From: Achromobacter deleyi
Lineage (GTDB): Bacteria; Pseudomonadota; Gammaproteobacteria; Burkholderiales; Burkholderiaceae_B
NCBI RefSeq assembly: GCF_016127315.1
Contig: NZ_CP065997.1
Span: 5,704,001 to 5,768,000 of the forward strand
Direction of reading: 5' to 3'
DNA: 64,000 bases
The position numbers were made by a program, and so were the translations under genes. Position 1 is the stretch's first letter. Every line of letters starts with the position of its first letter. Of this stretch, positions 45,694-61,240 are shown piece after piece. A model generated the notes under the pieces. The model saw nothing but the letters and a program-made list of their open reading frames with translations, was not told where the DNA came from and did not search any database.

Positions 45694-45706
45694 ATTTTCG
45701 TGGATG

Positions 45707-46036
45707 TTATTGGATCGAGGGGGGAGCGTTGTGGGTGGGGTTGGGGGCTTCCCTGTCGTCGTCGGGTTGCAGGGCCTGGTCGAGCATGGCTTCGGTCAGG
45801 GTGCCGAGGTGCTCGCAGAGGCTTTCGACGCCGCCCATCAGAGCGGTGACTGCCCAGGGGTCCAGCGGTGGGGAGCCGGTGGCGTCGGGTTCGGACGCGC
45901 TGTTGCCGACCACGCGGGCGATGGTCTGGATGGCGTAGCGGGTGCGGTCTAGTTGGTGGAGGTGGGAGAGGGAGACGGGGCCGGATTCGCGGTCGGTGTC
46001 GACTTGCCAGGGGTTTTGGGTTAGGGGGTGCGGCAT
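45707..46036 (-). CDS. Small acidic protein of unknown function with structured leader
   Basis: This is a 109-residue protein without signal peptide. Its core LDRTRYAIQTIARVVGNSA and DPWAVTALMGGVESLCEHLGTLTEAMLDQAL is helical, and it has a proline-rich acidic tail. It resembles the small DUF3077/DUF6124-like proteins of pseudomonads and burkholderias, whose role is unknown; this link is tentative. A strong AGGAGG ribosome site precedes ATG 46036. That site is next to one strand of a 7-bp stem in the upstream leader, so translation is probably controlled by RNA structure. It borders the AT-rich island. Confidence 0.65.
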   Translation of the reverse strand: MPHPLTQNPWQVDTDRESGPVSLSHLHQLDRTRYAIQTIARVVGNSASEPDATGSPPLDPWAVTALMGGVESLCEHLGTLTEAMLDQALQPDDDREAPNPTHNAPPSIQ

Positions 46037-46044
46037 GGGGGCTG

Positions 46045-46140
46045 CCTCCTATAGGGTGAAATCAGGCCGCGATGCGTTGCGGCTATCTACGCCTATAGCT
46101 TTCCGGCTTCCAAACCGGACTACCGATAGAAAGGTAGGGG
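46045..46140 (-). promoter_or_regulatory. Structured mRNA leader that abuts the ribosome site
   Basis: On the minus strand four stems can form in the 5' leader of the 45707-46036 gene. CTACC/GGTAG is at 46120-46137 and TCCGG/CCGGA at 46102-46119. A long-range 7-bp stem CTATAGG (46092-46098) pairs with CCTATAG (46049-46055). It encloses a GCCGC/GCGGC hairpin (46066-46083). The long stem ends directly at the AGGAGG ribosome site. Confidence 0.55.
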
Positions 46141-46348
46141 TGCAGTATACGACGAGAGACGGAGAGGAAGTGCAGAGTGGGACGTTTGCGCGACTAAAGA
46201 AGAAGCACTACAGCCAACAAAATTTCTTACCTCAACTTGAGGCAAACAGTCCGGCTTGGTGGAAGCGTCAGTTTTTTGTTTGAAGCGCTAAAAGGCTGAC
46301 CGTTGTTTGGGTCAAGTTTGCAAATACTATTGCAGCGGGAAGCCAGGC

Positions 46349-46377
46349 TTGCAGAGCCACGACAAGCCCAATATCAT
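46349..46377 (+). promoter_or_regulatory. Putative promoter of the reverse transcriptase gene
   Basis: TTGCAG (46349-46354) and TATCAT (46372-46377) are 17 bases apart, about 50 bases before the start codon. An inverted repeat TGCAA-N6-TTGCA lies just upstream at 46319-46334. Confidence 0.4.
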
Positions 46378-46428
46378 TACCTGAAAAATCAAAAAATTCA
46401 ATTTCAACAACAGAATTGAGCTTATAAA

Positions 46429-49400
46429 ATGAAATCAATTAAAGATAAGTATAATATTTTATCCCCAAAAATAGACTCAATTACCGACATAATCGTACTT
46501 TCCCACGCTTGGAAGAAAGCTCACACTTATATTAGAAATCACAATTCTTATGCAGACAATTTGCATTTAGATTGCTCGGCAATCGAGCTGGAGCACCACC
46601 TAATTCAGTTGGCAAACTCAGTACGCGACGGAAGCTACAAGACCTTTCCGCTGAGGATGATACCGGCCCCCAAGTCCGCACTTTGGGCCTTTTCCGCGGA
46701 CGATTGGGTACCGGATAATCAAAGCGAGTCTGCGATCATGAGGCCCCTAGCTCATGTTCTCATGCGAGATCAAGTCATTTCCACTGCCCTCATGCTTTGC
46801 GTTGCAGAATGCATTGAGTCTGCCCAGGGCGAACCCGGAACAAATGACAACTATAAAAAACACAAAACCTATAGCTATGGAAATCGATTGCACTGCAAAT
46901 ACGATAAAGAAGGACTCGCGGAATTTTCCTGGGGAAATTCTGAAACTTATAGCAAATTTTCAGAAGATTATAAGAGCTTCGTATCCAGACCAGCCGCAAC
47001 CGCAGAAGCCCTTACGATAAAAAGCGAAGAAAACACATACGTTATAAAACTAGACATATCTTCATTCTACGACAACATTGATATTGAATTTCTCATAAAT
47101 ACAATAAAATCAGAGTATGATTTCTTTCGACTAAAACATCAACGACCGGAGGCAGATGAAGATTTCTGGAACATTGCAAGAGCAATTCTTAAATTCGAAT
47201 GGAATAAATATGCAAAGACCTACATTCCTATATTAAGAAATAAAAAACTCCCAAAGGGCTTGCCGCAAGGATTAACCTCCTCCGGCTTCTTCGCAAACGC
47301 ATATTTACTAAAATTTGACAGGGCTATAGCCTCATCTTTAAATACGACGCTATACCACGACAACACCAGAATAGAAATTATTGACTATTGCCGATATGTC
47401 GACGACTTAAGACTGGTAGTTTCCACATCGGCAAAGATCAGCGAACCTTCGCTAGGTGCTCTGGTAGAAAACTGGGCTCAAGATTTTTTGGATAAACAAA
47501 CATCTCAGACCCAACGACTGTCTTTTAATTCCTCTAAGACCGAAGCTGAATTGTTCTCCTACTCCGGACGACTAACTGGTGTTGCGGCGACAATGAATGC
47601 TCTACAGGCTCAGTTAAGCGGGCCATTTGATCTCAACTCTCTCGTCCAGACAGAAGCAGGGCTAAATGGACTGTTGGCCACTGCGGAACTAGGATTTCAT
47701 ATACAGGCCAACAAAAGTCTCCACAATTCCCGCTCCCCTCTTGCAGCGATAGCTCGCCCCAAAAATGAAGTCAAAGACGACACACTGACACGATTCTCCG
47801 CCTATCGCCTCTCCAAGGTTCTCAGAGAAAAGCGTATTTTTAGTGATTTAAGCAGTGAAGTAGATGGAGTTAGCGCAAGGAGGGCTCTAGAATATGAATT
47901 TGAAGCTCTTTCGAGAAGGCTGATAGGAATTTGGTTATTCAATCCTTCTCAAGTTCAAGTTCTTAAATACGCACTAAATACCTTCCCCTCAGCAGAACTT
48001 ATCGAACCAATTCTGACTGAATTGAAAAATGCGGCATTTATAAATACGCATTTACACGCAAAATGTCACGCATTTTATATTATCACCGAAATATTTAGAG
48101 CCGCTGCAACAGAAACGGGATTTTGGATAGAAGAGGACTCAAGTTTCTCCGTTGGAGATTTACCTGAGTACAGAAATACACTAATCAATTGCGCACGGGA
48201 ACTGCTATCCAATGAGCAAACCCCTTGGTATGCAGTACAACAAGCCTCATTTTTCCTAAGCACAAGAAAAATACGGCACACTCTCCCTAGAAAATCAATT
48301 TACAGAAACCACATCCTACTACAAGGATACCTATTTCCGAGCTATAGGATACATTTCAAACCCGATCCGAACAGATTCTCCGGAATATCTATAATCGGTC
48401 ACCAGATAAAACAAGATACGCATCATCACCAAAAATGGTTTGAAAATTATTCAAAATCCATAACCGCCGACGACCTATCCTCGGCGATGAAGACCATATG
48501 TGATCTCGATTACTCTCTAGCAGAAGAAATAATTACATCACATCAAAATAGAATTATATCTTTACCTCACGAAGTTCCAGAACATCTCAAAATCTATGCA
48601 GAGTCCCGATGGTTTGCCATGAAAGACCAACTCCCTACAGGAGAGTGGATATCTCTAGCAGATGCCATGATGCATATCTCGTCGCCCTTCGGCTCTGAAA
48701 ATGCGTTACTCACGCTAGCCCTCGGAATATGTCGATCAGATTTTTTTGAGACCCATGATTACTCAAATCTAAGTCCCATATCCATCGAAATAAGAGTAAA
48801 AAAATGGGCAGACCTTGAGAGACTAAATTCTCGAACCTTAGAAGTTCAAAAAAAATCACATTTCGTACCTATTGACCCACATTACATCACTCCGTCGTGG
48901 ATAAAAAAGACGCATGAGTGGCAATACGCGTTGGGCCGAATTCTTAGATCACTGGCAATAGGAGAGCCTGACTTTACAGCGCGATCATGGATTCTACGAG
49001 CGGATCATCAAAAATATCACGGGCTGAAAACTAGCTGGGACAAACGCCGGATTGGTATATCACATGACCCCTACAATCTGGGTGCCACCACATCTGCTTT
49101 TACCCCATGGATTTCTGAATTAATTACCAATCTTTTGGCGTGGCCAGGAAGAATGAGCTCACCTAGAGAAATTCCCAATCTCGCGGGAGACTTTAGCAAG
49201 GATGAACTCATATCGGTATTAAGGAAACGCATCGCACACCAACGAGCACTATTTGGAAAAAGTTCCAACCTACCCGTTTATGAATACCCTATTTCCTGGA
49301 AACTCCGAGATTCCAGAAAGCTGCGGATCCTAATGATCCAAGGATTAATGCCGGCAGTCGCAGATTTTTCGAGCGGTTTGAGCACGTTAGACACCGACTC

Positions 49401-50229
49401 ATATAGGGGTCGGCATCGGGACCATTTAGCTAGTATCCTGAAGATTGCTCACAATAAAATATTGGCCCGACAAGCCATATTGAAGAAAGAAGACGGCCCA
49501 GATATTGATCTAGTTCTAATTCCAGAGTATGGGGTTCACCCCGATGATCAAGACCTTTTGCGATCATTCTCTGATGCAACTGGGGCGATAATTTTCTTCG
49601 GAATTGTTGGCGCCAAGCACCCAAGAAATTCCGACACATATATAAACACGGCCAGATGGTTAATCCCAAACAGAGCGGGCACCCGCCGCTCCTGGATTCG
49701 TATAGACCAAGGAAAGAAAACTCTAACGCCCGAAGAAGCAAAATTACCCCAAATAATTGGATGGCGACCTCACCAAGTTCTAGTGAAGTTAGTTTTCTCC
49801 GACCAGGATTTTTATCGCATAAGTGGGGCTATCTGCTACGATGCGACCGACCTTTCTCTAGCTGCCGACTTGCGCGATCTCACGCACACTTTTGTCGTAC
49901 TTGCGATGAACAACGACATAAAAACCTTCGATGGTATGGTCAGCGCTCTCCGATATCACATGTATCAACATATCGTTATTGCGAATACTGGTGAGTTCGG
50001 AGGGTCTACAGCGCAAGCTCCCTATGACTTGGAGCACAAGCGACAGATTGCTCACATACACGGCTCGGGCCACATCACGGCAACCATTTTTGATATACCT
50101 ATTGACGATTTTGGCCCAAAATCTCAGATGGGACAGACAACGGTATCCAAAGAGGAAATCAAAATAAAAATTGGAAAAACGCCACCCGCAGGACTAAATA
50201 TTCGTAAAAGATCTGCGCAAGAGCTCTGA
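46429..50229 (+). CDS. Reverse transcriptase-nitrilase fusion, DRT type 1 (UG1)-like defence protein
   Basis: This is a 1266-residue fusion protein. The N-terminal third is a reverse transcriptase. Motif A is VIKLDISSFYDNID (Asp209), motif B is LPKGLPQGLTSSGFFAN (Gln280-Gly281) and motif C is CRYVDDLRLVV (YVDD, residues 323-326). A long helical middle region (about 340-950) has no motif I recognise. The C-terminal region from about residue 963 is a carbon-nitrogen hydrolase (nitrilase) domain with a plausible Glu-Lys-Cys triad: Glu1033 (LIPEYGVHP), Lys1096 or Lys1097 (DQGKKTLTPEE) and Cys1136 (GAICYDATD). RT plus C-terminal nitrilase is the known architecture of defence-associated RT type 1 (UG1 clade), which protects against phage. 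The DNA is strikingly AT-rich compared with both sides, so it was acquired. No integrase is adjacent. No msr-like RNA is evident, and DRT1 is not known to need one. Confidence 0.92.
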   Translation: MKSIKDKYNILSPKIDSITDIIVLSHAWKKAHTYIRNHNSYADNLHLDCSAIELEHHLIQLANSVRDGSYKTFPLRMIPAPKSALWAFSADDWVPDNQSESAIMRPLAHVLMRDQVISTALMLCVAECIESAQGEPGTNDNYKKHKTYSYGNRLHCKYDKEGLAEFSWGNSETYSKFSEDYKSFVSRPAATAEALTIKSEENTYVIKLDISSFYDNIDIEFLINTIKSEYDFFRLKHQRPEADEDFWNIARAILKFEWNKYAKTYIPILRNKKLPKGLPQGLTSSGFFANAYLLKFDRAIASSLNTTLYHDNTRIEIIDYCRYVDDLRLVVSTSAKISEPSLGALVENWAQDFLDKQTSQTQRLSFNSSKTEAELFSYSGRLTGVAATMNALQAQLSGPFDLNSLVQTEAGLNGLLATAELGFHIQANKSLHNSRSPLAAIARPKNEVKDDTLTRFSAYRLSKVLREKRIFSDLSSEVDGVSARRALEYEFEALSRRLIGIWLFNPSQVQVLKYALNTFPSAELIEPILTELKNAAFINTHLHAKCHAFYIITEIFRAAATETGFWIEEDSSFSVGDLPEYRNTLINCARELLSNEQTPWYAVQQASFFLSTRKIRHTLPRKSIYRNHILLQGYLFPSYRIHFKPDPNRFSGISIIGHQIKQDTHHHQKWFENYSKSITADDLSSAMKTICDLDYSLAEEIITSHQNRIISLPHEVPEHLKIYAESRWFAMKDQLPTGEWISLADAMMHISSPFGSENALLTLALGICRSDFFETHDYSNLSPISIEIRVKKWADLERLNSRTLEVQKKSHFVPIDPHYITPSWIKKTHEWQYALGRILRSLAIGEPDFTARSWILRADHQKYHGLKTSWDKRRIGISHDPYNLGATTSAFTPWISELITNLLAWPGRMSSPREIPNLAGDFSKDELISVLRKRIAHQRALFGKSSNLPVYEYPISWKLRDSRKLRILMIQGLMPAVADFSSGLSTLDTDSYRGRHRDHLASILKIAHNKILARQAILKKEDGPDIDLVLIPEYGVHPDDQDLLRSFSDATGAIIFFGIVGAKHPRNSDTYINTARWLIPNRAGTRRSWIRIDQGKKTLTPEEAKLPQIIGWRPHQVLVKLVFSDQDFYRISGAICYDATDLSLAADLRDLTHTFVVLAMNNDIKTFDGMVSALRYHMYQHIVIANTGEFGGSTAQAPYDLEHKRQIAHIHGSGHITATIFDIPIDDFGPKSQMGQTTVSKEEIKIKIGKTPPAGLNIRKRSAQEL

Positions 50230-50356
50230 ATCCAACAACAGCAACTACGGCAGCAACCTCCCTGAATCACTCCGCCGTCCATGAACACAGATAATACTCG
50301 GACGAGGAGCTTCGTGGATAAGTCGAAACCCAGTAGCAATCAGACCAACCGAGTGC

Positions 50357-50373
50357 TAGAAGCAATGCTTCTA
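50357..50373. other. Hairpin between the RT and HNH genes
   Basis: TAGAAGC-AAT-GCTTCTA is a perfect 7-bp inverted repeat in the 187-bp gap. It could be a weak terminator or an operator for the HNH gene, whose TATAAT lies 40 bases on. Confidence 0.4.
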
Positions 50374-50416
50374 AGTTACCCTCCCATCCAAAGCCCAATA
50401 ATTTATATTTATTATA

Positions 50417-50995
50417 ATGATAGATCCAGCTCAACAAATACACGACTCACGATCAAAGCTTATACGCGCGCTAGCAACTAACCAGTCCCATCTAACTTGC
50501 ATACGGCTTTGGAGCATCTTCATCCGAATGCGTGACGGAACTAACTGCCTGCAATGTGGAAGCAAGCAGGACCTTGCAGCCCATCATATTTTCCGCAAGA
50601 GCTTCCTTCCGTCTGCCCGGTATGAACCGGGAAATGGAATCACTCTCTGCCGCAGATGCCACAAGGAACTGCATAGCGGCTTCAATGGTAGGCCCAACAT
50701 GCAACTACCTATGGATGCGCAGGGGGGAGAAAAAGCTGAAGATATTTCGCTGATGTTGAACCTTCTCGTCATGAAGAGCCGCGAACACAAGCATCATGTC
50801 GAAGAATGGTATTATTTAAGCAAGTCGACTTTGAGTACGATTAACATGCTTCAAGGATTCGATAGTGATGTGCGGCTTGACACTTCGCGAATAGAACAGG
50901 CATACATAGTGTGGAACCAAGCATCACTGCCCACAAGAAATGCAATCCTTAAAGCTAACGGCTTTGCGTCAACAAATGATGCCACTGCACCCTGA
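50417..50995 (+). CDS. HNH endonuclease
   Basis: This is a 192-residue protein with an HNH nuclease core at about residues 42-90. It has the zinc cysteines CLQC and CRRC, the AHHIFRKSF histidine pair, GNGITLC with the Asn and a final HKELH. The part after about residue 110 is helical and unassigned. HNH proteins cut DNA and are frequent in phage-defence islands. The start is unsure. ATG 50417 has no ribosome site and overlaps a perfect TATAAT (50413-50418), so translation may begin farther down, for example at ATG 50528. Its AT-rich DNA matches that of the RT gene. Confidence 0.82.
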   Translation: MIDPAQQIHDSRSKLIRALATNQSHLTCIRLWSIFIRMRDGTNCLQCGSKQDLAAHHIFRKSFLPSARYEPGNGITLCRRCHKELHSGFNGRPNMQLPMDAQGGEKAEDISLMLNLLVMKSREHKHHVEEWYYLSKSTLSTINMLQGFDSDVRLDTSRIEQAYIVWNQASLPTRNAILKANGFASTNDATAP

Positions 50996-51101
50996 CATCC
51001 CTATCGTATATTGCAATTAATCAAGCCCCCCCGCAAGGGTACACGTAGAATCCAAACTGTGATCTTGCTGATGATTTTAGTTGCAATGCAAAAAGGTAGC
51101 C

Positions 51102-51719
51102 ATGAATGAGGAAAAATTACTAATACATCTGAGCTCCGAACAGATTTCCAGGTTGAAGCTTGAGGCTGTCCGAGATCGCCCTTATGCAGGGCGCATCAGT
51201 GTTGTACTGGCCATTCGCTTGCTGGACAGGTCAAACCCTTATTTCGATAAATTTGCAGTGTTAGATGAGTTGGATTATTTGGAAGGCATACGCTCAACAA
51301 CACGAACAAAGCCAGAAGCATCCTTTAAGCACTCTGCTCTTAAACCGTTTCTCCACAAGCATTTCTCTTCTAGCAAGCACCTTTTCAAGAATATTGAGAT
51401 CCGATGGAATTTAGTGGCAGGAGGAAATAAGGACTTTGACCGACTTATTAGCGAAGTGGCGCAGGAGCATGGTGATAATTTTGACCAATGGGTAGGTAAT
51501 CTGACGCATCGCTTGGTTATCGACGGCTACGAGGAAAGAGCAAAGCGGGGGCTAACTGGAGACTGGATAATATATACGCAGCACGAAAGTATGAATTATT
51601 ATTTAGATCTCGCTACGCACGAAGAGGGCATTGGTGAACGCGCAAACGATTTGGCTAGGAAACTGCGAGATGGATGTGAAGCAGAGTTCCCATTTCTTTT
51701 CGATTCGCCCCTAGCCTAA
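51102..51719 (+). CDS. Unrecognised island protein
   Basis: I do not recognise this 205-residue protein. ATG 51102 has an AAAAGG ribosome site 5-6 bases upstream. The protein is mixed helical and charged with no signal peptide or membrane helix. Notable are a His-rich stretch (SALKPFLHKHFSSSKHLF, about residues 85-102) and WIIYTQHESMNYYLDLATHEEG near residue 160. It is AT-rich like the RT and HNH genes and is the last gene of the island before GC-rich DNA resumes about 15 bases after its stop. It may be a third defence component or a separate cargo gene. Confidence 0.7.
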   Translation: MNEEKLLIHLSSEQISRLKLEAVRDRPYAGRISVVLAIRLLDRSNPYFDKFAVLDELDYLEGIRSTTRTKPEASFKHSALKPFLHKHFSSSKHLFKNIEIRWNLVAGGNKDFDRLISEVAQEHGDNFDQWVGNLTHRLVIDGYEERAKRGLTGDWIIYTQHESMNYYLDLATHEEGIGERANDLARKLRDGCEAEFPFLFDSPLA

Positions 51720-51737
51720 ACAGCAATTCCATTAATT

Positions 51738-51880
51738 CCCGGCGCGGCCGCCTTCTGAATCGGCTCGATCTGCCCCAGTGCATTGCCCCTGATGCGCGGC
51801 TCGCGCGCCAACGCCTGCCGGCGCAATGCACCGGCTGGCGGAATCGGTGGCAGTTCGGGCAGTCGCGTGCTGCTTCGCGC
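51738..51880 (-). pseudogene. Decayed fragment of a ParB-like gene
   Basis: On the minus strand this encodes PPIPPAGALRRQALAREP, then RIRGNALGQIEPIQKAAAPG. This aligns with PPIPPAATFSRQALAREARISSNTLGQIERIQKAAAPE of the intact ParB-like gene at 60380-61204 (about residues 127-165). Nothing before or after this piece is kept. The fragment starts right where the AT-rich island ends, so it marks the island's right border. Confidence 0.75.
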
Positions 51881-51896
51881 CCCGCCCCAAGAAGCC

Positions 51897-52448
51897 TCAA
51901 CGCCGCCCCGGCAACATCCGCACCAACGTGTTATCCCGAAACACATAATGATGCAACAACGCCGCAGCAGCATGCAGCCCCACCAGGAAATACCCCACCG
52001 TAGCCAAGGTCTCATGCAGCTCCTTGACCTGATCCGCCAAGGCCTGGTCCGGCCCCACCAGCGCCGGAACCTCCAACCCAAACAACGGAATCACCTTCCC
52101 CCCCGCGCTGAGCGTCAGCCACCCCAGAATCGGCGTGACGATCATGAACGCATACAGCGCGTAATGCATCAGCCGTGAAAGCACATCCTGCCACCTCGGC
52201 ATCGGCGGACGCACGCCAGGCGCCGCACCCGAAGCCACCCGAATAGCCGCCCGCAGAACCACCAACCCGATCACACACAACCCCAGCGAGAAATGCAGCG
52301 CCTTGATGTTGTCGTACAGATCGGTGCCTTTGGTGGCCAGCCCTCGCAATTCCATACAGGCGTAGACCAATGCCAGGACGACGAGCATGAGCCAGTGCAT
52401 GGCGATCACCAGGCCTGCGTACTGAGTATCGGAGCTCTTGATTTTCAT
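51897..52448 (-). CDS. Cytochrome b561-family protein
   Basis: This is a 183-residue membrane protein with four helices and haem-ligand histidines at the expected places: His18 (VIAMHWLM), His52 (KALHFSLGL), then LHETLATVGYFLVGLHAAAALLHHYVFRDNTLVRML. The latter is the conserved C-terminal signature of bacterial cytochrome b561. These proteins move electrons in the inner membrane, for example quinol to superoxide in CybB. It starts the GC-rich DNA right of the island. Confidence 0.93.
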   Translation of the reverse strand: MKIKSSDTQYAGLVIAMHWLMLVVLALVYACMELRGLATKGTDLYDNIKALHFSLGLCVIGLVVLRAAIRVASGAAPGVRPPMPRWQDVLSRLMHYALYAFMIVTPILGWLTLSAGGKVIPLFGLEVPALVGPDQALADQVKELHETLATVGYFLVGLHAAAALLHHYVFRDNTLVRMLPGRR

Positions 52449-52473
52449 GTTTCTTCCTTGTCGTCAAAGCGCG

Positions 52474-52791
52474 CTACGGACAGCCTGGTTCGAGATTCGC
52501 CCTGCCCTCGGCGCCCTGCATGGGCGCGTCGGGAGGTCTCCAGGGATCAACATGGGTCATCACGTTCAATACACGATGCCGCTGCATGACGCGCTGGCGC
52601 GCTTGCACGGCGATCTTGTGGCCTTCGTCGACGGTCAGCCCGGCGTCGATTTCCAGGTGAGCGTCGACGACGATCATCTCCCCCATTTTTCGGGTGCGAA
52701 TATCGTGTACGCCTTGAACGCCTGAGGTGTCCAGCAAGGTGCGCTGGATCGCGGCGGCTTCGTCCCGAAGCCTGAACGGTTGATGAACATG
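52474..52791 (-). pseudogene. Remnant of a cation diffusion facilitator (C-terminal domain)
   Basis: The minus-strand frame reads QPFRLRDEAAAIQRTLLDT, SGVQGVHDIRTRKMGEMIVV, DAHLEIDAGLTVDEGHKIA and VLNVMTHVDPW. This is the cytoplasmic dimerisation domain of CDF metal exporters (YiiP/FieF type). All membrane helices are missing and a stop codon precedes the fragment. It is therefore a 5'-truncated relic, probably without function. Confidence 0.75.
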
Positions 52792-52795
52792 GATT

Positions 52796-52816
52796 AGCGG
52801 GGCATTGCGCCCCGCT
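52796..52816. terminator. Hairpin downstream of the broken chemoreceptor gene
   Basis: The perfect 8-bp stem AGCGGGGC / GCCCCGCT with a 5-base loop lies 30 bases past the chemoreceptor stop on the minus strand. No T-tract follows. Confidence 0.45.
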
Positions 52817-52846
52817 CATGGTCCGGCCCGTAATGAGACGTACTGA

Positions 52847-54172
52847 TCAGGTCAACATCAACGCGCCGCGCTCACGCGGCTGGGCGGCAACGTCCCCGCG
52901 TCGCGCGGCATCCTCGCTCAAGCGGAACACACCGACCGCTCTCACCAACGCATGCGCCTGGTCCTGCATCGAGCCCGCTGCAGCCGCGGCCTCTTCGACC
53001 AGCGCGGCATTCTGCTGGGTCACTTCGTCCATCTGCGACACCGCGCGGTTGACTTGCTCGATGCCGGAGGCCTGTTCCTGCGATGCCGCGGCGATCTCGC
53101 CCATGATGTCCGTCACGCGCTTCACCGAGGCGACCACATCCTGCATCGTGGTGCCTGCGTTTTCCGCGTGGTTGGCGCCTTCGGCCACTTTGCTGACGGA
53201 CGCTTCGATCAGCGTCTTGACCTCGCGCGCGGCCTGCGCGCTGCGTTGCGCCAACGATCGCACCTCGCCCGCGACCACCGCGAAGCCCTTGCCCTGCTCG
53301 CCCGCCCTGGCCGCTTCAACGGCGGCGTTCAGCGCCAGGATATTGGTCTGGAACGCGATCCCATCGATCACCGAAACAATCTCGGAAATCTTGCGCGAGC
53401 TGGCGGAAATATCCCCCAGTATCCTCCATCGTGCTGACCACCGCCGACACCACGGCGCCGCCCCGCTGGGCCACTTCGGAAGCGCTTGCCGCCAGTTGAT
53501 TGGCCTGGCGCGCGTTGTCGGCATTCTGCTTGACGGTCGACGCCAGTTCTTCCATCGATGCAGCGGTTTCTTCCAGCGACGCGGCCTGCTCTTCGGTTCG
53601 GCTGGACAAGTCCGTGTTGCCGGCCGCAATCTGCCCCGCTGCGCTGGATATGGTCTCAGACCCCGCCCGAATGGTCCGAACAGCGCCGGCCAGCTTGCCC
53701 TGCATGTCATGCAACGCACGCAGCAGTCGGCCGGTTTCATCCCGGGTGCCCGCGTGGATGGGTTGACCCAGGTCGCCACGCGCCACCGTCTCGGCCACCG
53801 ACACTGCCTGCGCAAGCGGCGCCGTGATCGACTTGGACACCCTCCACGCGAACAGGCCGCCCAGCACCACGGCCATGGCCGACAGGATCAGGTTCAACAT
53901 GCCCGCGTTGTCGATCACCCGCTGGCTGTCGGCGCCGGCGTCCACCATCTCGGCGGATTGAATCCGGGAAATCTCCACGACGCGGTCTTGCAGGCTGTCC
54001 AGAAGCGGAAGGGTCTCTTCCAGCAAGCGCTGGCGAGCGGCGTCGCGCTCATTACTCTTGAGGAGTGCGCCCACGCCCTGGAATGACTTCACATAGCGAC
54101 CGCGCACGTCTTCCAATAACCGCAACTGCAGGCGTTCATCGTCGGTGCGGAACAACGGCCGCAGGGTCTCCA
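52847..54172 (-). pseudogene. Truncated, frameshifted chemotaxis receptor copy
   Basis: Nearly all of this region matches the intact receptor gene at 55511-57145, in the same direction. It is broken twice. The 5' end is lost: similarity begins at ETLRPLF, about residue 108 of the intact copy, and the upstream DNA is unrelated. A 10-base insertion near 53411-53420 (atcccccagt) shifts the frame inside the signalling domain, so the second membrane helix/HAMP part and the tip are in different frames. It is not expected to make a working receptor. It probably arose by tandem duplication followed by decay. Confidence 0.88.
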
Positions 54173-54189
54173 CGACAACGAGGTATGCC

Positions 54190-54342
54190 CTACGTTGCGT
54201 TCATTTCCTTCTCTTTCTCCTTCTTCATCTTCTCCTTGTCCTTCTTGGCTCCATCGTGATGAGACTTGATGGCGAGAAACATGCCCGTGCCCAACACCAG
54301 GAGCTTGAACGTACCGAAGATTACAGGGACCCAAAAATTCAT
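54190..54342 (-). CDS. Small membrane protein with Lys/Glu-rich tail
   Basis: This 50-residue protein has one hydrophobic helix (VPVIFGTFKLLVLGTGMFLAI) followed by a highly charged tail (KKDKEKMKKEKEKE). A GAGGA ribosome site lies just before two adjacent ATG codons (54345 and 54342). The function is unknown. It sits next to the broken end of the chemoreceptor relic, so it came with the DNA that replaced the receptor's 5' part. Confidence 0.5.
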   Translation of the reverse strand: MNFWVPVIFGTFKLLVLGTGMFLAIKSHHDGAKKDKEKMKKEKEKEMNAT

Positions 54343-54638
54343 CATTTCCTCAAAACGCTGCGGCGGCAGCTGCATGTACTGCGCGAGGGCCAGTCAAGGC
54401 CGAACGGGCGATGGCCGTGAGGACCACGAAGCGCATCAGCCCGATTCAGCGCGGTGAGCGCCCTACTCCCTACAAGCGTCGAATTCTACCGCCGAATCCA
54501 TACAAACTCTTGAATGATTATTTATGTATGTTTTTTATTCCCATACAAAGGATATAAAAACCATACATAAAGCTCGCGCGGCGAAGGGGCACGGCTCAAC
54601 CCGCGCCTGGCGCGCCGCCTGGGGACACCACCCACCGT
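54343..54638. other. 296-bp gap with an AT-rich inverted repeat
   Basis: No gene is supported. The left half is GC-rich. Between 54495 and 54575 the sequence is very AT-rich and carries the large inverted repeat and CCATACA motifs described separately. Confidence 0.6.
54521..54571. repeat. 18-bp AT-rich inverted repeat with CCATACA motifs
   Basis: The left arm TTTATGTATGTTTTTTAT (54521-54538) and the right arm ATAAAAACCATACATAAA (54554-54571) are complementary except for one base, with a 15-base loop. CCATACA occurs at 54498, 54541 and 54561. No gene starts immediately beside it. It could be a regulatory site, an element end or a cruciform. Confidence 0.65.
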
Positions 54639-55208
54639 TCAGCTCAGGGCGGTTAACAGTGCGTCTGTGGTGACGACGGTGCAGTACTCACCGTCCAGGT
54701 TGGCAAGCGACATGGCGTGGACATCTTCGGCGCTTCGCGGTGTCCCGTTCCAGTCTGTCCGAGCGAACGTGAAACAGCCGTCAGCCACCAGCCACGCCTG
54801 CAAGCCAAGGTTGCCGGCCATGCGGACCGTTGCCTCGACTGAATTGTTCGTGATGACGCCCGCCACGACCAACGTGTCGTGGCCATGGGCGCGAAGCCTC
54901 TTTTCCAGGTCGGTGCCGAGGAACGCGCTGTTCGTCTGCTTGGGAATGATCGGCTCGCCAGCGATGGGCGCTATCTCGGGCTTGAATTCATGCCCTGGCT
55001 GGCCCGGCCGATAGTGAGACGCGGGATCCGTGGAGTCATGCCGGACGTGCCAGACCGGCCACCCCAGGGCGCGCCAATGGGCAAGGAGCCGACCGACTTG
55101 GCGCTCGGCATCGGGATTGTTTCGTTCGCCCCAGCTTGGGTGGTCAATCGCGCGCTGCAGGTCAATCAGCAGAAGCACGGCACCGCGTGGGGAAAGTGGG
55201 GAGCGCAT
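54639..55208 (-). CDS. Isochorismatase-fold hydrolase lacking the catalytic cysteine
   Basis: This is a 189-residue protein of the isochorismatase/nicotinamidase superfamily. Asp16 (LLLIDLQRA) and Lys90 (IIPKQTNSAF) of the catalytic triad are in place. At the position of the nucleophile the usual T-x-x-C-V reads TNNSVEATVR, so Ser123 replaces Cys. Cysteine hydrolases of this fold need that residue, whereas true isochorismatases such as PhzD work without it. The protein is either a vinyl-ether hydrolase, a serine variant or inactive. A TATAGT -10-like element lies upstream on the minus strand at 55277-55282. Confidence 0.87.
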   Translation of the reverse strand: MRSPLSPRGAVLLLIDLQRAIDHPSWGERNNPDAERQVGRLLAHWRALGWPVWHVRHDSTDPASHYRPGQPGHEFKPEIAPIAGEPIIPKQTNSAFLGTDLEKRLRAHGHDTLVVAGVITNNSVEATVRMAGNLGLQAWLVADGCFTFARTDWNGTPRSAEDVHAMSLANLDGEYCTVVTTDALLTALS

Positions 55209-55510
55209 GTGGACAGGCCGGAGGTTTTCGAATCGATCGGCGGGTCGAGACGGGGCCGAAAAGCCGAGCGAAGCCGACTATACCGCAGGACCACCACGGT
55301 CGCCGCGCGACATTTTCGGACGCGCCCGATGGTCTCTCGCGACAAGTCCAGGACCTTCATCGGCTGCGCCCGCGCCTGCGTGGCAGCGCTGCCTTGCAGG
55401 CGCGTGGGCCAGGTTCGGCCGACGATTTACGTTCGCGGCTTATGTTCGCGATTGCCCATCGCGCGGCGCGCAAGCAACGGCCCACGCATCGGGGCCATTG
55501 AGCCAGGAGA
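55209..55510. other. 302-bp intergenic region without a recognisable gene
   Basis: It is GC-rich with no convincing reading frame in codon usage. Apart from a possible minus-strand -10 (TATAGT) for the isochorismatase-fold gene I see no feature. Confidence 0.5.
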
Positions 55511-57145
55511 TCAGGTCAGCATCAGGGCACCGCGCTCGCGCGGCGGGGCGCCGGCGTCCTCGCGCCGCGCGGCATCCTCGCTCAAGCGGAACACGCCGAC
55601 CGCGCCCACCAATGCATGAGCCTGGTCCTGCATCGCGCCCGCCGCCGCCGCGGCTTCTTCGACCAGCGCGGCATTCTGCTGGGTCACTTCGTCCATCTGC
55701 GACACCGCGCGGTTGACCTGCTCGATGCCGGTGGCCTGTTCTTGCGATGCCGCGGCGATCTCGCCCATGATGTCCGTCACTCGCTTCACCGAGGCGACCA
55801 CCTCGTGCATCGTGGTGCCTGCGTTCTCCGCCTGGCCAGCGCCCTCGGCCACCTTGCTCACGGACGCTTCGATCAGCGTCTTGACCTCGCGCGCGGCCTG
55901 CGCGCTGCGTTGCGCCAACGACCGCACCTCGCCCGCGACCACCGCAAAGCCCTTGCCCTGCTCGCCCGCCCTGGCCGCTTCAACGGCGGCGTTCAGCGCC
56001 AGGATATTGGTCTGGAACGCAATCCCGTCGATGACCGAGACAATCTCGGAAATCTTGCGCGAACTGGCGGAAATATCCTCCATCGTGCTGACCACCGCCG
56101 ACACCACGACGCCGCCCCGCTGGGCCACTTCGGAAGCGCTTGCCGCCAGTTGATTGGCCTGGCGCGCGTTGTCGGCATTCTGCTTGACGGTGGACGCCAG
56201 TTCTTCCATCGATGCGGCGGTTTCTTCCAGTGACGCGGCCTGCTCTTCGGTCCGGCTGGACAAGTCCGTGTTGCCGGCCGCAATCTGCCCTGCTGCGCTG
56301 GATATGGTTTCGGACCCGGCCCGAATGGTCCGAACCGCGCCGGCCAGCTTGTCCTGCATGTCGTGCAGCGCGCGCAGCAGTCGGCCGGTTTCATCCCGGG
56401 TGCCCGCGTGGATGGGTTGACCCAGGTCGCCACGCGCCACGGTCTCCGCCACCGCAACTGCCTGGGCAAGCGGCGCCGTAATCGACTTGGCCACCCGCCA
56501 CGCGAAAAAGCCGCCCAGCACGATGGCCATGGCCGACAAGATCAGATTCAACGTGCCCGCGTTGTCGATGACCGTCTGGCTGGCGGCGCCGGCGTCCACC
56601 ATCTCGGCAGATTGAATCCGGGAGATCTCGATGACGCGGTCTTGCAGGCCGTCCAGCAGCGGGAGGGTCTCTTCCAGCAAGCGCTGGCGAGCGGCGTCGC
56701 GCTCGCCGCTCTTGAGGAGCGCGCCCACTCCCTGGAATGACTTCACGTAGCGGCCGCGCACGTCTTCCAATAGCCGCAACTTCAGGCGTTCATCTTCGGT
56801 GTGGAACAACGGCCGCAGGGTCTCCAGCGCCTGGTCGATCGCCTTACGGTTGGTGTCGATGCGAGCAAACAGCGTTTCGGCGGCGCGGGGGTCTGTGTTG
56901 ACGATCAGCTCGAGATTCGCGCGGGCATTGGCGCGGGTCGTCACGTCAATAATGTTGATGGCGTTTGCTTTGGCCCAAGTCTGTTCTGTGATGGCTCGGT
57001 TGATGGCGCCGATGTTGGACAGTTCGTATTGCGACAGGCCGGTTAGCGCCAGTAATAGGGCTAGTACGGTGCCGAAACCCAGGGTCAGGCGGGTGCCAAT
57101 GGAGAGATTGCTAAACAGGTTGCCAATAGTGAAACGCGAGCGCAT
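55511..57145 (-). CDS. Methyl-accepting chemotaxis protein
   Basis: This is a 544-residue chemoreceptor. It has a first membrane helix at about residues 18-40, a periplasmic four-helix (Tar-like) sensor with many alanines and arginines, a second helix near 195-215, HAMP and methylation helices. It also has the hairpin tip [49 protein letters not shown]. The C-terminus has no NWETF pentapeptide, so CheR/CheB are not tethered. The ligand is unknown. A broken copy lies 1.3 kb downstream in the same direction. Confidence 0.95.
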
Positions 57146-57388
57146 GAATTTGTATTACGACGAAGGGAAAACCCTAGTGTAAAAATCATGGCGTATATCG
57201 CAACGAGGTTATGAGGGAGATTTGAGATTTCGCATGGCGGGGGGAAATTTTTTGTGGCTGCCAGGCCTGTCGGGGTCGTGAGGAGGTCAAATGCCTTCAG
57301 TAGCCATTCCACGCAAGGACGGAATACCGGCGCTGAAAATATGGCGCCAGACTGCAATACCATAGATGCCCCACTCGAGGAAACCGAC

Positions 57389-57868
57389 ATGACATCGCAG
57401 GCACAACGCTTCCTGGACCATCTCGCCGTTCATGGCTGGACGGTGCTGCGCACCACGCCCACCGCGACGCCAGCGGCCGTGCCGTTCGAAGCGTACGGCT
57501 ATGGCGCTTTCCTGGCGACATTCACCGAATTGCACAACGCGGATCAAACACGCTGGTTCCTGAGCGCAGCCGACCATGACGGCACGGCGAACAGCGCCTT
57601 TCCTTGGCACACCCTGCGCGATATCAGCCTGGAGGCTGCGCTGGACGACGCCGGCCGGCACGCGGTCCTGGACTTCTGGCAACAGCACACACCGATCTAC
57701 ATGAGCGTTGCCGGCGATTACGAATTCCTGGCGATAGAACACGACTCGGGCCGCATCGTGCACGGCATCGAGCCGGAATTCGAGGACATCCGCGTCGTTT
57801 CCCCGAATCTCGAGGCCCTGTTCGAAGACATGATTGCCGGCCGTGCCACGGCGGCGTTTCTGGCGTAA
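57389..57868 (+). CDS. SMI1/KNR4 (SUKH)-like immunity protein candidate
   Basis: This 159-residue protein starts at ATG 57389 after a GAGGAAA ribosome site. The segment AYGYGAFLATFTELHNADQTRWFLSAADH and the late YEFLAIEHDSGRIVHGIEPEFEDIRVVSPNLEALFEDMI follow the pattern of SUKH domains, many of which neutralise polymorphic or contact-dependent toxins. No signal peptide is present, so it would act in the cytosol. It is followed after 6 bases by another small gene. No toxin gene adjoins it, so it may be an orphan immunity gene. Confidence 0.65.
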   Translation: MTSQAQRFLDHLAVHGWTVLRTTPTATPAAVPFEAYGYGAFLATFTELHNADQTRWFLSAADHDGTANSAFPWHTLRDISLEAALDDAGRHAVLDFWQQHTPIYMSVAGDYEFLAIEHDSGRIVHGIEPEFEDIRVVSPNLEALFEDMIAGRATAAFLA

Positions 57869-57874
57869 CACCGT

Positions 57875-58309
57875 ATGCAACAGCCTACGCAGCCCCATAT
57901 GCCGCCCGATCTGAAGGCGTATACCCACGACGGCATTCCCGCTCAGGAAACTTGGCTGGATTGTGCAATCGCCGACGGCGGCCGGCTGCGCGTGGTGCTG
58001 CTTGCGGCCGATCCGCAGGCGGCGATACCGTTGCTGGCGCGAGCCCGCTCGATCGCCCAAGCTTTGGCCGCGCACCGCGACGCGGCGCTGCATTTCCTCT
58101 GGCGCGCGGGGCGCGACAGCGGCGACCCCGAAGATGCCCCCGCGGCGTTCCTCGAACACTTCGTGCCATCGGACTTGGTCGTCTCGACTGACGGGGGTTA
58201 CGTGCTGCACCTGGCGACGCGCGACGCTACCTGGTTCATGGATGGCTATTGGCCGTCCGTGCAGTTTGCCGTAGACGATGTGCCGATAGCCTGGGTCTGC
58301 GAATCCTGA
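57875..58309 (+). CDS. Small protein co-transcribed with the SUKH-like gene
   Basis: I do not recognise this 144-residue protein with confidence. It begins with a proline-rich stretch, then DGIPAQETWLDCAIADGGRLRVVLLAADPQAA and ends with LATRDATWFMDGYWPSVQFAVDDVPIAWVCES. It has the look of small immunity-like proteins with alternating strands and helices. It lies 6 bases after the SUKH-like gene and is surely in the same operon. There is no signal peptide. Its role is probably linked to that of its neighbour. Confidence 0.6.
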   Translation: MQQPTQPHMPPDLKAYTHDGIPAQETWLDCAIADGGRLRVVLLAADPQAAIPLLARARSIAQALAAHRDAALHFLWRAGRDSGDPEDAPAAFLEHFVPSDLVVSTDGGYVLHLATRDATWFMDGYWPSVQFAVDDVPIAWVCES

Positions 58310-58731
58310 CCTAGGCCGTCGCTTTTCGCTGACGTTTTCTGACCCTTTGTTCGAGCTGTCGACGTTCAATGGCGGCACTTACGGGATCGATTATCTATAC
58401 AGATTTGCAGGCCCATTCGCCAGATGGCCGCTCATGGCCGGCAAGCGTCCGCTCGCCGGCCGGGATACATCAAACCTCTGTTTGTTCAGCCATCTCAACA
58501 GCATCGTCGACCTGGATGCCAAGGTAGCGAACTGCGCTTTCCACGGGCGTTGTCGCCCCACCTTCTGAACCCTGAGCAATGGCACAAATGGCCATAAAGG
58601 TCGGCGTTATTCGTGCATTCATATTTCTCGGAGATTCGTAGAATTTCCCTGATTGATGGATCAGGCCGTTTCAACAGTCGGGCGGCTTTTTCGGTGATTG
58701 CAAATCACTTTAACAGACCGAGATTTATTCC
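58310..58731. other. 422-bp region holding a recombinase relic and little else
   Basis: No intact gene is supported. It contains the C-terminal relic of a tyrosine recombinase (58470-58560, minus strand) and a GGCCGGC/GCCGGCC repeat near 58437-58462. The last 150 bases are AT-richer and probably hold the promoter of the gene at 58732. Confidence 0.6.
58470..58560 (-). pseudogene. C-terminal relic of a tyrosine recombinase/integrase
   Basis: The minus-strand frame ending at 58470 reads TTPVESAVRYLGIQVDD then AVEMAEQTEV and stop. This matches the conserved end of a group of tyrosine recombinases (ES-x-VRYLGI-x-VDDAL-E-x-AEQTE), including the catalytic tyrosine in VRYLG. Everything upstream of about TTPVES is unrelated, so only some 30 codons survive. 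It is a scar of a mobile element. Confidence 0.65.
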
Positions 58732-59157
58732 ATGGACATTTCCAAAGGCATACCTTTGACGACGACGTCGCGCAGCATTGCGGACTTGAATCGTCCGCTC
58801 GTGAAACCGCCCGCTAACTTTGCTCATGATTTAGCAGCCTCGGCTGAAGCTCTGCGCAAAGCGGAAGCAGTGGAACGAGGCATAGGTCGCCTTGAGGCCG
58901 ACAACTCCCCCCAAAATGCCGTTCAGGTTGTCATGAAGGGCGATCAACGCGTCGCGACAATATATAAGTCTGGCGTCGTAGAGGTTACCGATCAATACGC
59001 GGAACAATTAAAAGGCTTGAATCTTCCTGGTGATGCATCCAGCAATTTGGGGTCGATTCGTGCAGCAATAATCGCGAAGGCCGTGAACGGGGAGATTTTG
59101 GATTTAAAAGCATCTCCTCCTGTCTCTTCACAATCTCGGTTTTCAATAACGGCATAG
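58732..59157 (+). CDS. Small hypothetical protein, lower GC
   Basis: I do not recognise this 141-residue protein. It is soluble, begins MDISKGIPLTTTSRSIADLNRP and has a helical segment (FAHDLAASAEALRKAEAVERGIGRLEAD). Then comes a strand-rich part (QVVMKGDQRVATIYKSGVVEVTDQYAEQL). Codon usage is clearly less GC-biased than in the chromosomal genes around it, which suggests transfer. It lies between a recombinase relic and a Rap1a-like immunity gene, so it may belong to a toxin-immunity or secretion-effector cassette. Confidence 0.6.
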   Translation: MDISKGIPLTTTSRSIADLNRPLVKPPANFAHDLAASAEALRKAEAVERGIGRLEADNSPQNAVQVVMKGDQRVATIYKSGVVEVTDQYAEQLKGLNLPGDASSNLGSIRAAIIAKAVNGEILDLKASPPVSSQSRFSITA

Positions 59158-59219
59158 GATAGAGCCGGTTTGATTTATTTTAAGAGTGCCGCCCGGGGGG
59201 CGTATTGGCGCAAAGAATC

Positions 59220-59579
59220 CTACCGGCAAGCGAAAGACTGATGGAGTGCCTCGCTCACCAGCGGGCCGGCATTTTCCGCGAGACGGCTGGTCGGCAGCTT
59301 GGACAAGTAGCTGTACACCCTGTCCTTCAATTCGTGAGGAAGGACGCCGGTGGGGGTGCACCAGACCGTGCCTTGTGTCTGGTCGGCGATGCCGACCACG
59401 TAGGCCTGCGCATAGGAGGAAGAAAATTGGCGGCGAAGCGATGCATCGCGGAGCTCTGAGGGCATCCGGCCTTCAAGGGCCGCGACCAGCTCGGCACCCG
59501 TAAAGTGCCAGGTCCTGGTTCCCTGTGCCTGGCAGACCGCGCAAGCGGACAGCATGATAACCAGTGGTAGCAATCGCAT
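59220..59579 (-). CDS. Rap1a/Tai-like periplasmic immunity protein
   Basis: This 119-residue secreted protein has a signal peptide and begins MRLLPLVIMLSAC. Cleavage may be at CQA (about residue 18), or the LSAC may serve as a lipobox. The mature part fits the Rap1a/Tai family: GAELVAALEG near the start, AYVVGIADQTQGTVWCTP in the middle and LVSEALHQSFACR at the end. Cys74 and Cys118 are the likely disulfide pair. These proteins protect against amidase effectors of type VI secretion. The start gives the family's usual length. It is encoded downstream of the gene at 59657. Confidence 0.75.
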   Translation of the reverse strand: MRLLPLVIMLSACAVCQAQGTRTWHFTGAELVAALEGRMPSELRDASLRRQFSSSYAQAYVVGIADQTQGTVWCTPTGVLPHELKDRVYSYLSKLPTSRLAENAGPLVSEALHQSFACR

Positions 59580-59656
59580 TGGAAATTCTGCCTCTTTGGC
59601 CCGCCTGGCGGCCCTGTCGTGTGCACGCTGTTGTCCTGCTGGACGCAGGTCTGGTC

Positions 59657-60286
59657 TCAAAGATGCTCGAGTTGATTGCGCGGCTGGAACTCCGGATCCT
59701 CTTTGCCTTCCAGCATCGCGTCCACCATGGCCTCGAATGTGCCAGCTGCTTGGCCGAGTGCTTCGGACGCCAGGAATACGGAGCCGCCGTTTCCGACGAG
59801 TTCCAGCGCAGCCACCGTTTCTCGTTCGTCTTCCTCGCCCCAGAGATAGTCGTGGACCACTGCCAGGCCACGACCATCCGCCTCGAAAAAATCGGCCGCT
59901 CCACGCGCTATCGAAAAAAAGACGATGAGGTCGTGGAGATTCTCTGAATAGGTCAGCGAGCCTGCAACGAAGCGCGTTCCTGTACGATCGTAGGCCGCAA
60001 CTTTGATGTTCTCGGCCTCCGCGGATGTCAGGATGGCCCCCAGCGCCGCGCGGTTGTCCGCATGGCGAGCCAGCATGGCGTCGCATTCCGCAATGAGCCT
60101 GCCCAGATCCTGATTGCTGGAGGCGGCCAGATCCTTGCCTTCGGAGAGATACCACTGGCCGCCGATGGCACGCCAGTCCGACCATCTTGATGCCGCCGGC
60201 GCCGGGGCCGCGAGCCATCTGGCAAGATTCTCGCGGGGCATCTGGAGGTTGAGAAAGGCAGAATAGGGTTCGGACATGGCAGCCAT
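59657..60286 (-). CDS. Hypothetical cytosolic protein upstream of the Rap1a-like gene
   Basis: I do not recognise this 209-residue protein. It is acidic and mostly helical, with no signal peptide. Noticeable segments are WRAIGGQWYLSEGKDLAASSNQDLGRLIAECDAML and NLHDLIVFFSIARGAADFFEADGRGLAVVHDYLWGEEDERE. ATG 60286 or 60277 may be used. It precedes the Rap1a/Tai-like gene by 77 bases on the same strand. Proteins of this size beside immunity genes are sometimes immunity proteins themselves, but nothing proves it here. Confidence 0.6.
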   Translation of the reverse strand: MAAMSEPYSAFLNLQMPRENLARWLAAPAPAASRWSDWRAIGGQWYLSEGKDLAASSNQDLGRLIAECDAMLARHADNRAALGAILTSAEAENIKVAAYDRTGTRFVAGSLTYSENLHDLIVFFSIARGAADFFEADGRGLAVVHDYLWGEEDERETVAALELVGNGGSVFLASEALGQAAGTFEAMVDAMLEGKEDPEFQPRNQLEHL

Positions 60287-60379
60287 CGACTCTCAGGTTC
60301 TGATCAACTTTGCTTTTACCAAATAAGGGGTGTCAGGCCAATTCTCGACAAGATTCGTTCAGTTGAGAGGAGGCCCCCA

Positions 60380-61204
60380 TCAATCATCCCCTCCCCCCGC
60401 CGACGCATTCCTGGCCTCAGCCAACGCCACCGTCAGATGCATCACCTTCTTCTTCAACTGATCCCTTTCATCCGTCAACCGCGCCAGCAACTCCCGTAGC
60501 CGCGCCACCTCGGCAGGCAAATCCGCGATATTCTCGATCGGAATATCCGGCACCGCCTCTTTCGGCGGCGGCGCCTTGGCCTGGCGCACTTCGCGCGCCG
60601 CCTGCTGCAATTCCTTCCTGCCCCCCGCCACCGCAGCCGCCTGCCGCTCCTGCGGCAAGGTCGCGACCGCCGCCGCGGCGTTGATGGAGATCGCCCCATC
60701 CTTCACCGCCCGCACCAATTCCGGCGCGGCGGCCTTCTGAATCCGCTCGATCTGTCCCAGCGTGTTGCTGCTGATGCGCGCCTCACGCGCCAACGCCTGG
60801 CGGCTGAAGGTGGCGGCGGGCGGAATCGGCGGTGGTTCGGGCGGCGGCGTGCTGCCGTCGTCTTCCCATGGCGGCACGCTGCGCGATTGCAGGATCTCCT
60901 TCTTGCGCAGCGCCAGCACGCCGCGCTGGAAATCCGACACGCTGCGCCGGCCCAGGTGGTTCTCGATCATCCACAGGTGCACGTCGTCCATGGATTTGAA
61001 CGAGGTGTTCTGCCGCGTCTCGAAGGGTATGCCGTGCTTCATGCACAGCGCATAGCGGTTGTGGCCGTCGATCAGCAGATCGCCCCACAGCACCAGCGCG
61101 TCGCGGCAGCCTTCGGCCAGCAGGCTGCGTTCGAGCGCCTCGCGCTCGTCGTCGGTCAAGGGGTCAATATAGGCGCGCAGGCCTTCGTCAATCCTGATAT
61201 CCAT
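60380..61204 (-). CDS. ParB/Spo0J-like DNA-binding protein
   Basis: This 274-residue protein has a ParB N-terminal-like domain at about residues 8-75. It shows IDPLTDDEREALERSLLAEGCRDALVLWGDLLIDGHNRYALC, with the NR-containing loop of ParB/Srx folds. A KorB-like helix-turn-helix segment follows (SRQALAREARISSNTLGQIERIQKAAAPELVRAVKDGAISINAAAAVATL). A coiled coil closes the protein (LPAEVARLRELLARLTDERDQLKKKVMHL). It starts at ATG 61204; an upstream TTG is unlikely. No parA adjoins it. It is a plasmid- or island-type regulator/partition homologue. A fragment of a second copy lies at 51738-51880. Confidence 0.85.
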   Translation of the reverse strand: MDIRIDEGLRAYIDPLTDDEREALERSLLAEGCRDALVLWGDLLIDGHNRYALCMKHGIPFETRQNTSFKSMDDVHLWMIENHLGRRSVSDFQRGVLALRKKEILQSRSVPPWEDDGSTPPPEPPPIPPAATFSRQALAREARISSNTLGQIERIQKAAAPELVRAVKDGAISINAAAAVATLPQERQAAAVAGGRKELQQAAREVRQAKAPPPKEAVPDIPIENIADLPAEVARLRELLARLTDERDQLKKKVMHLTVALAEARNASAGGGDD

Positions 61205-61240
61205 GGTGTCCAAAAAAATTCAAGCGCCGCCTGTCGCTGG

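Follow-up and report, generated by a model that had tools for sequence, protein, structure and literature searches.

The window analyzed here, a stretch of 64,000 nucleotides from Achromobacter deleyi (contig NZ_CP065997.1, positions 5,704,001 to 5,768,000), harbors a gene for a defense-associated reverse transcriptase 1 (DRT1), here named drt1. Profile scores and alignment to the DRT1 of PDB entry 9YFD confirmed that the gene encodes a full-length protein of this type (UG1, class 3 of the UG/Abi reverse transcriptases [RTs]). We consider it likely that drt1 specifies an abortive-infection protein that is carried as exchangeable defense cargo and works by the published DRT1 cycle (Neville et al. 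2026, PMC13275509). As far as its sequence tells, the system is of a described kind, and what is new is a divergent DRT1 with a different tail. The features of the gene are as follows.

46429..50229, plus strand: drt1, a fusion of RT, helical repeat, and nitrilase (open reading frame, PADLOC, 9YFD match)
47020..47550, plus strand: RVT_1 core match, residues 198 to 374 (PF00078, 39.8 bits, cut-off 29.6)
47395..47406, plus strand: YVDD, residues 323 to 326, with D325/D326 corresponding to D324/D325 of 9YFD (alignment, residue map)
47617..47619, plus strand: S397, aligned with the DNA-priming S402 of 9YFD (alignments; S402 from PMC13275509)
47866..49278, plus strand: middle region, about residues 480 to 950, helical repeat by alignment to 9YFD, limits approximate (domain name from PMC13275509)
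49330..50088, plus strand: nitrilase domain, about residues 968 to 1220 (PADLOC, 9YFD)
49525..49527, plus strand: E1033, presumed nitrilase Glu (Glu in 88/88 rows of the alignment described below)
49714..49716, plus strand: K1096, presumed nitrilase Lys (Lys in 88/88 rows)
49735..49737, plus strand: E1103, candidate for what we take to be the second Glu of the tetrad (Glu in 87/88 rows, Asp in 1/88)
49834..49836, plus strand: C1136, nitrilase nucleophile, C1116 of 9YFD (Cys in 88/88 rows)
50113..50175, plus strand: C-terminal linker, residues 1229 to 1249, lacking the pseudoknot tyrosine (alignment)
50176..50190, plus strand: lid motif K1250-T-P-P-A1254, corresponding to K1219 to A1223 of 9YFD (alignment; lid residues from PMC13275509)

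The open reading frame runs from an ATG at 46429 to a stop at 50229 and encodes 1,266 amino acids with no internal stop, exactly where the original prediction, made from the letters of the DNA, had placed it. The 98% identical database relative P0001 begins 35 residues further upstream; since an in-frame TGA at 46417 to 46419 stands four codons ahead of the ATG in the window, 46429 was kept as the start. The RT motifs read in the prediction are present as LDISSFYDNI (residues 208 to 217), PQGLTSSGFF (279 to 288), and YVDD (323 to 326), and the AT-rich character it had pointed out is evident from a GC content of 43.2% in drt1 versus 68.0% in the window excluding 46119 to 51872.

The original prediction had proposed profile searches for UG1/DRT1 and nitrilase, which were run. 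The protein matched 59 PADLOC families, and among the best 25 of these the Drt1a model PDLC03745 stands out (E = 0, 1,291 bits, residues 10 to 1256), followed by a full-length match to a second Drt1a model, PDLC02171 (605 bits), and by the RTasNitrilase model (320 bits, residues 746 to 1256). The best other RT class was UG5-nitrilase, named DRT5 in PMC13275509, which also combines an RT with a nitrilase but reached 140 bits, about one-ninth of the Drt1a score. A PDB search gave 9YFD, "Defense-associated reverse transcriptase 1" (E = 4e-158, residues 1 to 1231), as its single hit at an E value of 1 or better, and the two proteins share the same domain order along their whole length, with 30% identity over 1,175 aligned columns. 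In Pfam, RVT_1 (E = 5e-10) was the sole domain found, with no nitrilase domain at an E value of 1, and no NCBIfam model reached its cut-off. Because of the Drt1a score and the full-length match to 9YFD, UG1/DRT1 is the right family, as predicted; the nitrilase assignment, on which Pfam is silent, follows from the RTasNitrilase model and 9YFD, and with the RVT_1 match above its cut-off the predicted architecture of an RT with a C-terminal nitrilase is borne out. The middle region, in which the prediction could name no motif, corresponds to the alpha-helical repeat domain of 9YFD, judging from the alignment. Judged by the two scores, PDLC03745, the closer Drt1a model, is likely the home of the window's lineage.

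In the published model, DRT1 synthesizes DNA without a template, primed on S402, leaving short A-rich adducts on the protein; tetramers stack into dormant filaments, in which a neighbor's C-terminal residues lie over the nitrilase active site (PMC13275509). DRT1 acts by abortive infection, from which T4 escapes via its helicase gene dda. Defense of the 9YFD DRT1 was lost in D324N/D325N, C1116A, and S402A mutants and strongly reduced by K1219A and A1223F, and charge reversal of E333 also costs defense. According to the same paper, S402 is not conserved among other class 3 DRTs, and DRT5 likewise makes untemplated DNA. The original prediction had called both the RT product and the nitrilase substrate of this class poorly understood; the former has now been described, while the paper names neither the substrate nor the full trigger (PMC13275509). 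Our literature searches returned no publication on the DRT1 lineage of the window, which is no proof that none exists.

Conservation was read from a main alignment of 88 rows, composed of 76 loci, 10 database proteins, 9YFD (residues 1 to 1212), and the window protein. Ten of the 86 DRT1-relative loci, with frames below 1,150 amino acids, were left out, and two rows duplicate others (86 different rows); P0001, as stated, is 98% identical to the window protein. D325, D326, S397, E1033, K1096, and C1136 are identical in 88/88 rows, and E1103 is Glu in 87 rows and Asp in one. In the lid, K1250 and P1253 are each conserved in 85/88 rows and A1254 in 86/88, with one gap being due to the cut 9YFD row. 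For a second alignment, 120 of the 178 database proteins found were taken, of which 27 were aligned with the window protein first and then all 120; here, S397 and C1136 are present in 121/121 sequences and D325 and D326 in 120, with one gap. The Glu1033, Lys1096/1097, and Cys1136 of the original prediction are all present at the named positions, and its pair of lysines narrows to K1096, as the K1097 column holds Lys in only 13/88 rows. The priming serine, the lid motif, and the site of cargo exchange go beyond that prediction. We take E1033 and K1096, and as a candidate E1103, to fill the Glu and Lys roles of the nitrilase superfamily.

The pairwise alignment with 9YFD had placed S402 opposite N403, and the alignment of many sequences resolves it to the S397 column. 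9YFD and four relatives carry two additional residues immediately before this column (GT in 9YFD), which the window protein lacks. S404, the priming serine by one reading of the pairwise alignment, was rejected (Ser in 38/88 rows versus 88/88 for S397). The window protein and 9YFD have the YVDD motif, the priming serine, and the nitrilase cysteine in common, and the Lys and Ala of the lid stand at identical spacing. Shown by sequence, the residues for DNA synthesis, priming, catalysis, and the lid are conserved, with priming and activity themselves being predictions, and the priming serine and the lid look general in DRT1.

Following the published cycle, the RT of the window protein would use S397 as a primer and, without a template, attach a short semirandom DNA to the protein itself. 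The adduct would promote assembly of the tetramer, presumably the form that the nitrilase requires, and would also lead to a dormant higher-order state, with the C-terminal K-x-x-P-A lid lying over the active site. Phage replication proteins would release this state, and the freed nitrilase (E1033, K1096, E1103, C1136) may then act on some essential molecule, so that the cell stops before phage release. We infer priming, assembly, trigger, and abortive infection from a homologue of 30% identity.

Several observations weigh against a simple transfer of this cycle. 9YFD is only 30% identical to the window protein and belongs to another deep clade, and its inter-tetramer contact residues, including E333, are not retained in the window protein, which has S334 in place of the latter. 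Furthermore, R1210 and Y1215 of the pseudoknot have no counterpart: P1230 stands at the position of R1210, and no aromatic residue is found four positions before the lid lysine (K-4). The R1210-Y1215 contact is missing from most other DRT1 rows, too, and does not define DRT1.

In a within-DRT1 tree (a quick, short search with support from the Shimodaira-Hasegawa-like approximate likelihood ratio test [SH-aLRT] only), 20 rows form the window clade, 10 form the clade containing 9YFD, and 10 form a third clade, each with a support of 100. Tail features were counted in 85 of the 88 rows, excluding 9YFD and two rows gapped at the Phe or Lys column, and lengths were taken from the alignment, as pattern-derived linker lengths in the set of 120 proteins were imprecise. 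The distance from the conserved Phe (F1228) to the lid lysine is 21 to 24 residues in 20/20 rows of the window clade (22 in the window, versus 11 in the tail of 9YFD), 11 in 9/9 rows of the 9YFD clade, 14 to 17 in 10/10 rows of the third clade, and 8 to 24, mostly 13, in the 46 others. An aromatic residue at K-4 occurs in 8/9 rows of the 9YFD clade, in 0/20 of the window clade, 0/10 of the third clade, and 1/46 others, as well as in 0/90 of the proteins carrying the K..PA motif among P0001 to P0091. Basic residues in the three positions that follow the Phe are more widespread (window clade, 7/20; 9YFD clade, 9/9; third clade, 9/10; others, 37/46). The tail of L150, a locus 82% identical to 9YFD, fits the published R1210, Y1215, K1219, and A1223. 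By these counts, lineage matters less for the arginine side of the pseudoknot clasp than for its tyrosine side, and we read the tyrosine clasp as belonging to one branch of DRT1 and self-priming and the lid as family-wide.

With its doubled tail linker and no pseudoknot tyrosine, the window lineage probably has a dormant clasp of somewhat different detail. The difference may go deeper: the protein could be a DRT1 by descent with a dormant state other than the 9YFD pseudoknot filament. The long tail would then take a different route to close the nitrilase, coming from the same protomer or from a neighbor within one tetramer, and priming and effector would stay as they are. The linker lengths and the K-4 counts, which separate the window clade from that of 9YFD, point in this direction, but the lid motif is conserved and its contact may be made by other residues, the 7 window-clade rows mentioned do retain a basic residue shortly behind the Phe, and changes to non-conserved tail residues of the 9YFD DRT1 cost tenfold or less (PMC13275509); on balance, we regard such a state as possible but doubtful. 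As a tentative extension, the window clade might represent a DRT1 subtype whose long, clasp-less tail brings the lid to the nitrilase by a different path and in which the adduct keeps the effector silent by way of a different assembly, perhaps released by a different trigger. The published cycle, with a clasp altered in detail, remains our preferred reading. DRT1 was structurally explained from one lineage (PMC13275509), and the window protein, which is far from that lineage, helps to sort family-wide features (priming serine, RT and nitrilase residues, lid) from those of the 9YFD model that appear to be lineage-specific (pseudoknot clasp, tail length, some inter-tetramer contacts). It also offers a second protein on which to ask if DNA adducts work through one and the same filament in every case.

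DRT1 was found in 1 of 61 genomes of relatives searched, namely, as a single copy in the window's own genome, and in 0/36 other species of the genus, of which the collection holds 42. At the level of the order, 10/399 genomes matched at an E value of 1e-3; clear relatives are encoded by four genomes (the own one, G258, G374, G341) and, as a piece, by G408, the other five being weak nitrilase- or RT-level matches. Within the class, 4/369 genomes matched, the own one included, and the other three matches were weak. A scan of species genomes with the single window protein gave no match, and the same scan with the alignment yielded 78 loci from the best 80 of 145 stretches encoding relatives. Seven plasmid records matched, four of them over 80% or more of the query length; one relative was found among viral contigs and none among phage records. 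The single copy in 1/61 genomes would fit a decayed or non-defense relic, a reading which we consider very improbable given a full-length, stop-free frame, retention of every catalytic residue, and the existence of relatives 98% and 75% identical to it among database proteins.

The genomic location of drt1 adds to the picture.

46119..51871, no strand: AT-rich cargo of 5.75 kb with flanks common to three congeners (homology of flanks, GC content)

In these three congeners, left homology extends up to window base 46118, and right homology resumes at 51872, 51884, or 51875. The cargo of G026 at this site (5.8 kb) encodes SIR2 (478 bits), HerA (813 bits), and a KAP-type NTPase. That of G025 (6.6 kb) encodes an AAA_13/PrrC-like ATPase (PADLOC PDC-S06, 961 bits) and an HNH protein whose N terminus resembles SAVED-HNH effectors (97 bits). 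Congener cargo spans 5587 to 12217 in L062 and 5424 to 11187 in L064 (window junctions 46118 and 51872). In G014, both contigs break within the site. G031 is a fourth congener, in which homology on the left stops at 46125 and the right flank is absent from the 8 kb examined. The window DRT1 is hence located where two congeners keep other defense systems. By this comparison, the site is a place where defense genes are exchanged, drt1 was probably acquired recently, and the context supports a putative anti-phage role of the gene.

Two further genes of the cargo follow drt1 on the same strand, with gaps of 187 and 85 bases and a similarly low GC content (47.8% and 45.1%).

50417..50995, plus strand: HNH protein of 192 amino acids, probably outside the system (PF01844, 28.8 bits)
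51081..51719, plus strand: cargo protein of 212 amino acids, function unassigned (no Pfam match at an E value of 1)

This arrangement raises the question of a multi-gene DRT1 system with the HNH protein, and perhaps the 212-amino-acid protein, as an added effector or regulator. P0001 (DRT1, 98%) and P0121 (HNH, 96%) are both listed with a longest contig of 27,191 bases, so a single transferred segment with drt1 and the HNH gene probably occurs elsewhere, too; moreover, an HNH gene lies two genes downstream of a plasmid-borne DRT1 in Pseudoalteromonas. Neither window protein, however, matched any of the 86 DRT1-relative loci (tblastn, E value of 1e-3; some flanks are short), which also means that the Pseudoalteromonas HNH gene is no detectable relative of the one in the window, and the published DRT1 defends alone (PMC13275509). 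We therefore regard such a partnership as improbable, with no support in the 86 loci for counting the two genes as parts of the system. The HNH protein matched 4/399 genomes of the order, full length solely in the own genome, and had no match among viral contigs, and the 212-amino-acid protein was found in 1/43 genomes of the genus.

Some members of the same RT-nitrilase family carry a small transmembrane partner, drt1b. A small gene stands directly behind drt1 in 9 of the 86 loci (two of them query loci), and we infer these to be drt1b, given where they lie and a hydrophobic stretch noted by eye. The window has no such gene directly behind drt1, the next frame of at least 80 amino acids on the strand being the HNH gene 187 bases on; no profile search for drt1b was made. 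The plasmid relatives L076, L077, and L078 each have a small gene directly behind drt1. The Pseudoalteromonas relative lies beside a viperin gene, that of Vibrio tubiashii beside Qat genes, and that of Photobacterium toruni beside type I-F CRISPR with TniQ.

Some features around the cargo were also recorded. In G021 and G008, DNA left of 45705 runs almost straight into about 60414 to 60431, so that the cargo site lies within a larger stretch of about 15 kb (45706 to 60414) that is absent there. Immediately left of the cargo, 45707 to 46036 (minus strand) encodes a 109-amino-acid protein without a Pfam match, and similar DNA is found elsewhere in the own genome and in many congeneric genomes. 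At the right end of the cargo, 140 bases (51734 to 51873) are 82% identical to 60717 to 60855, which is part of an open reading frame at 60380 to 61213; pieces similar to these 140 bases are present in many congeners. No Rfam family reached its gathering score in window positions 36000 to 64000. Further to the right, two gene copies on the minus strand (52845 to 54172 and 55509 to 57145), read by eye as a chemotaxis receptor, are 92% identical over 1,328 bases. The latter is intact (544 amino acids) and the former is split into two overlapping frames; in G025 and G026, the stretches compared contain one receptor-like copy.

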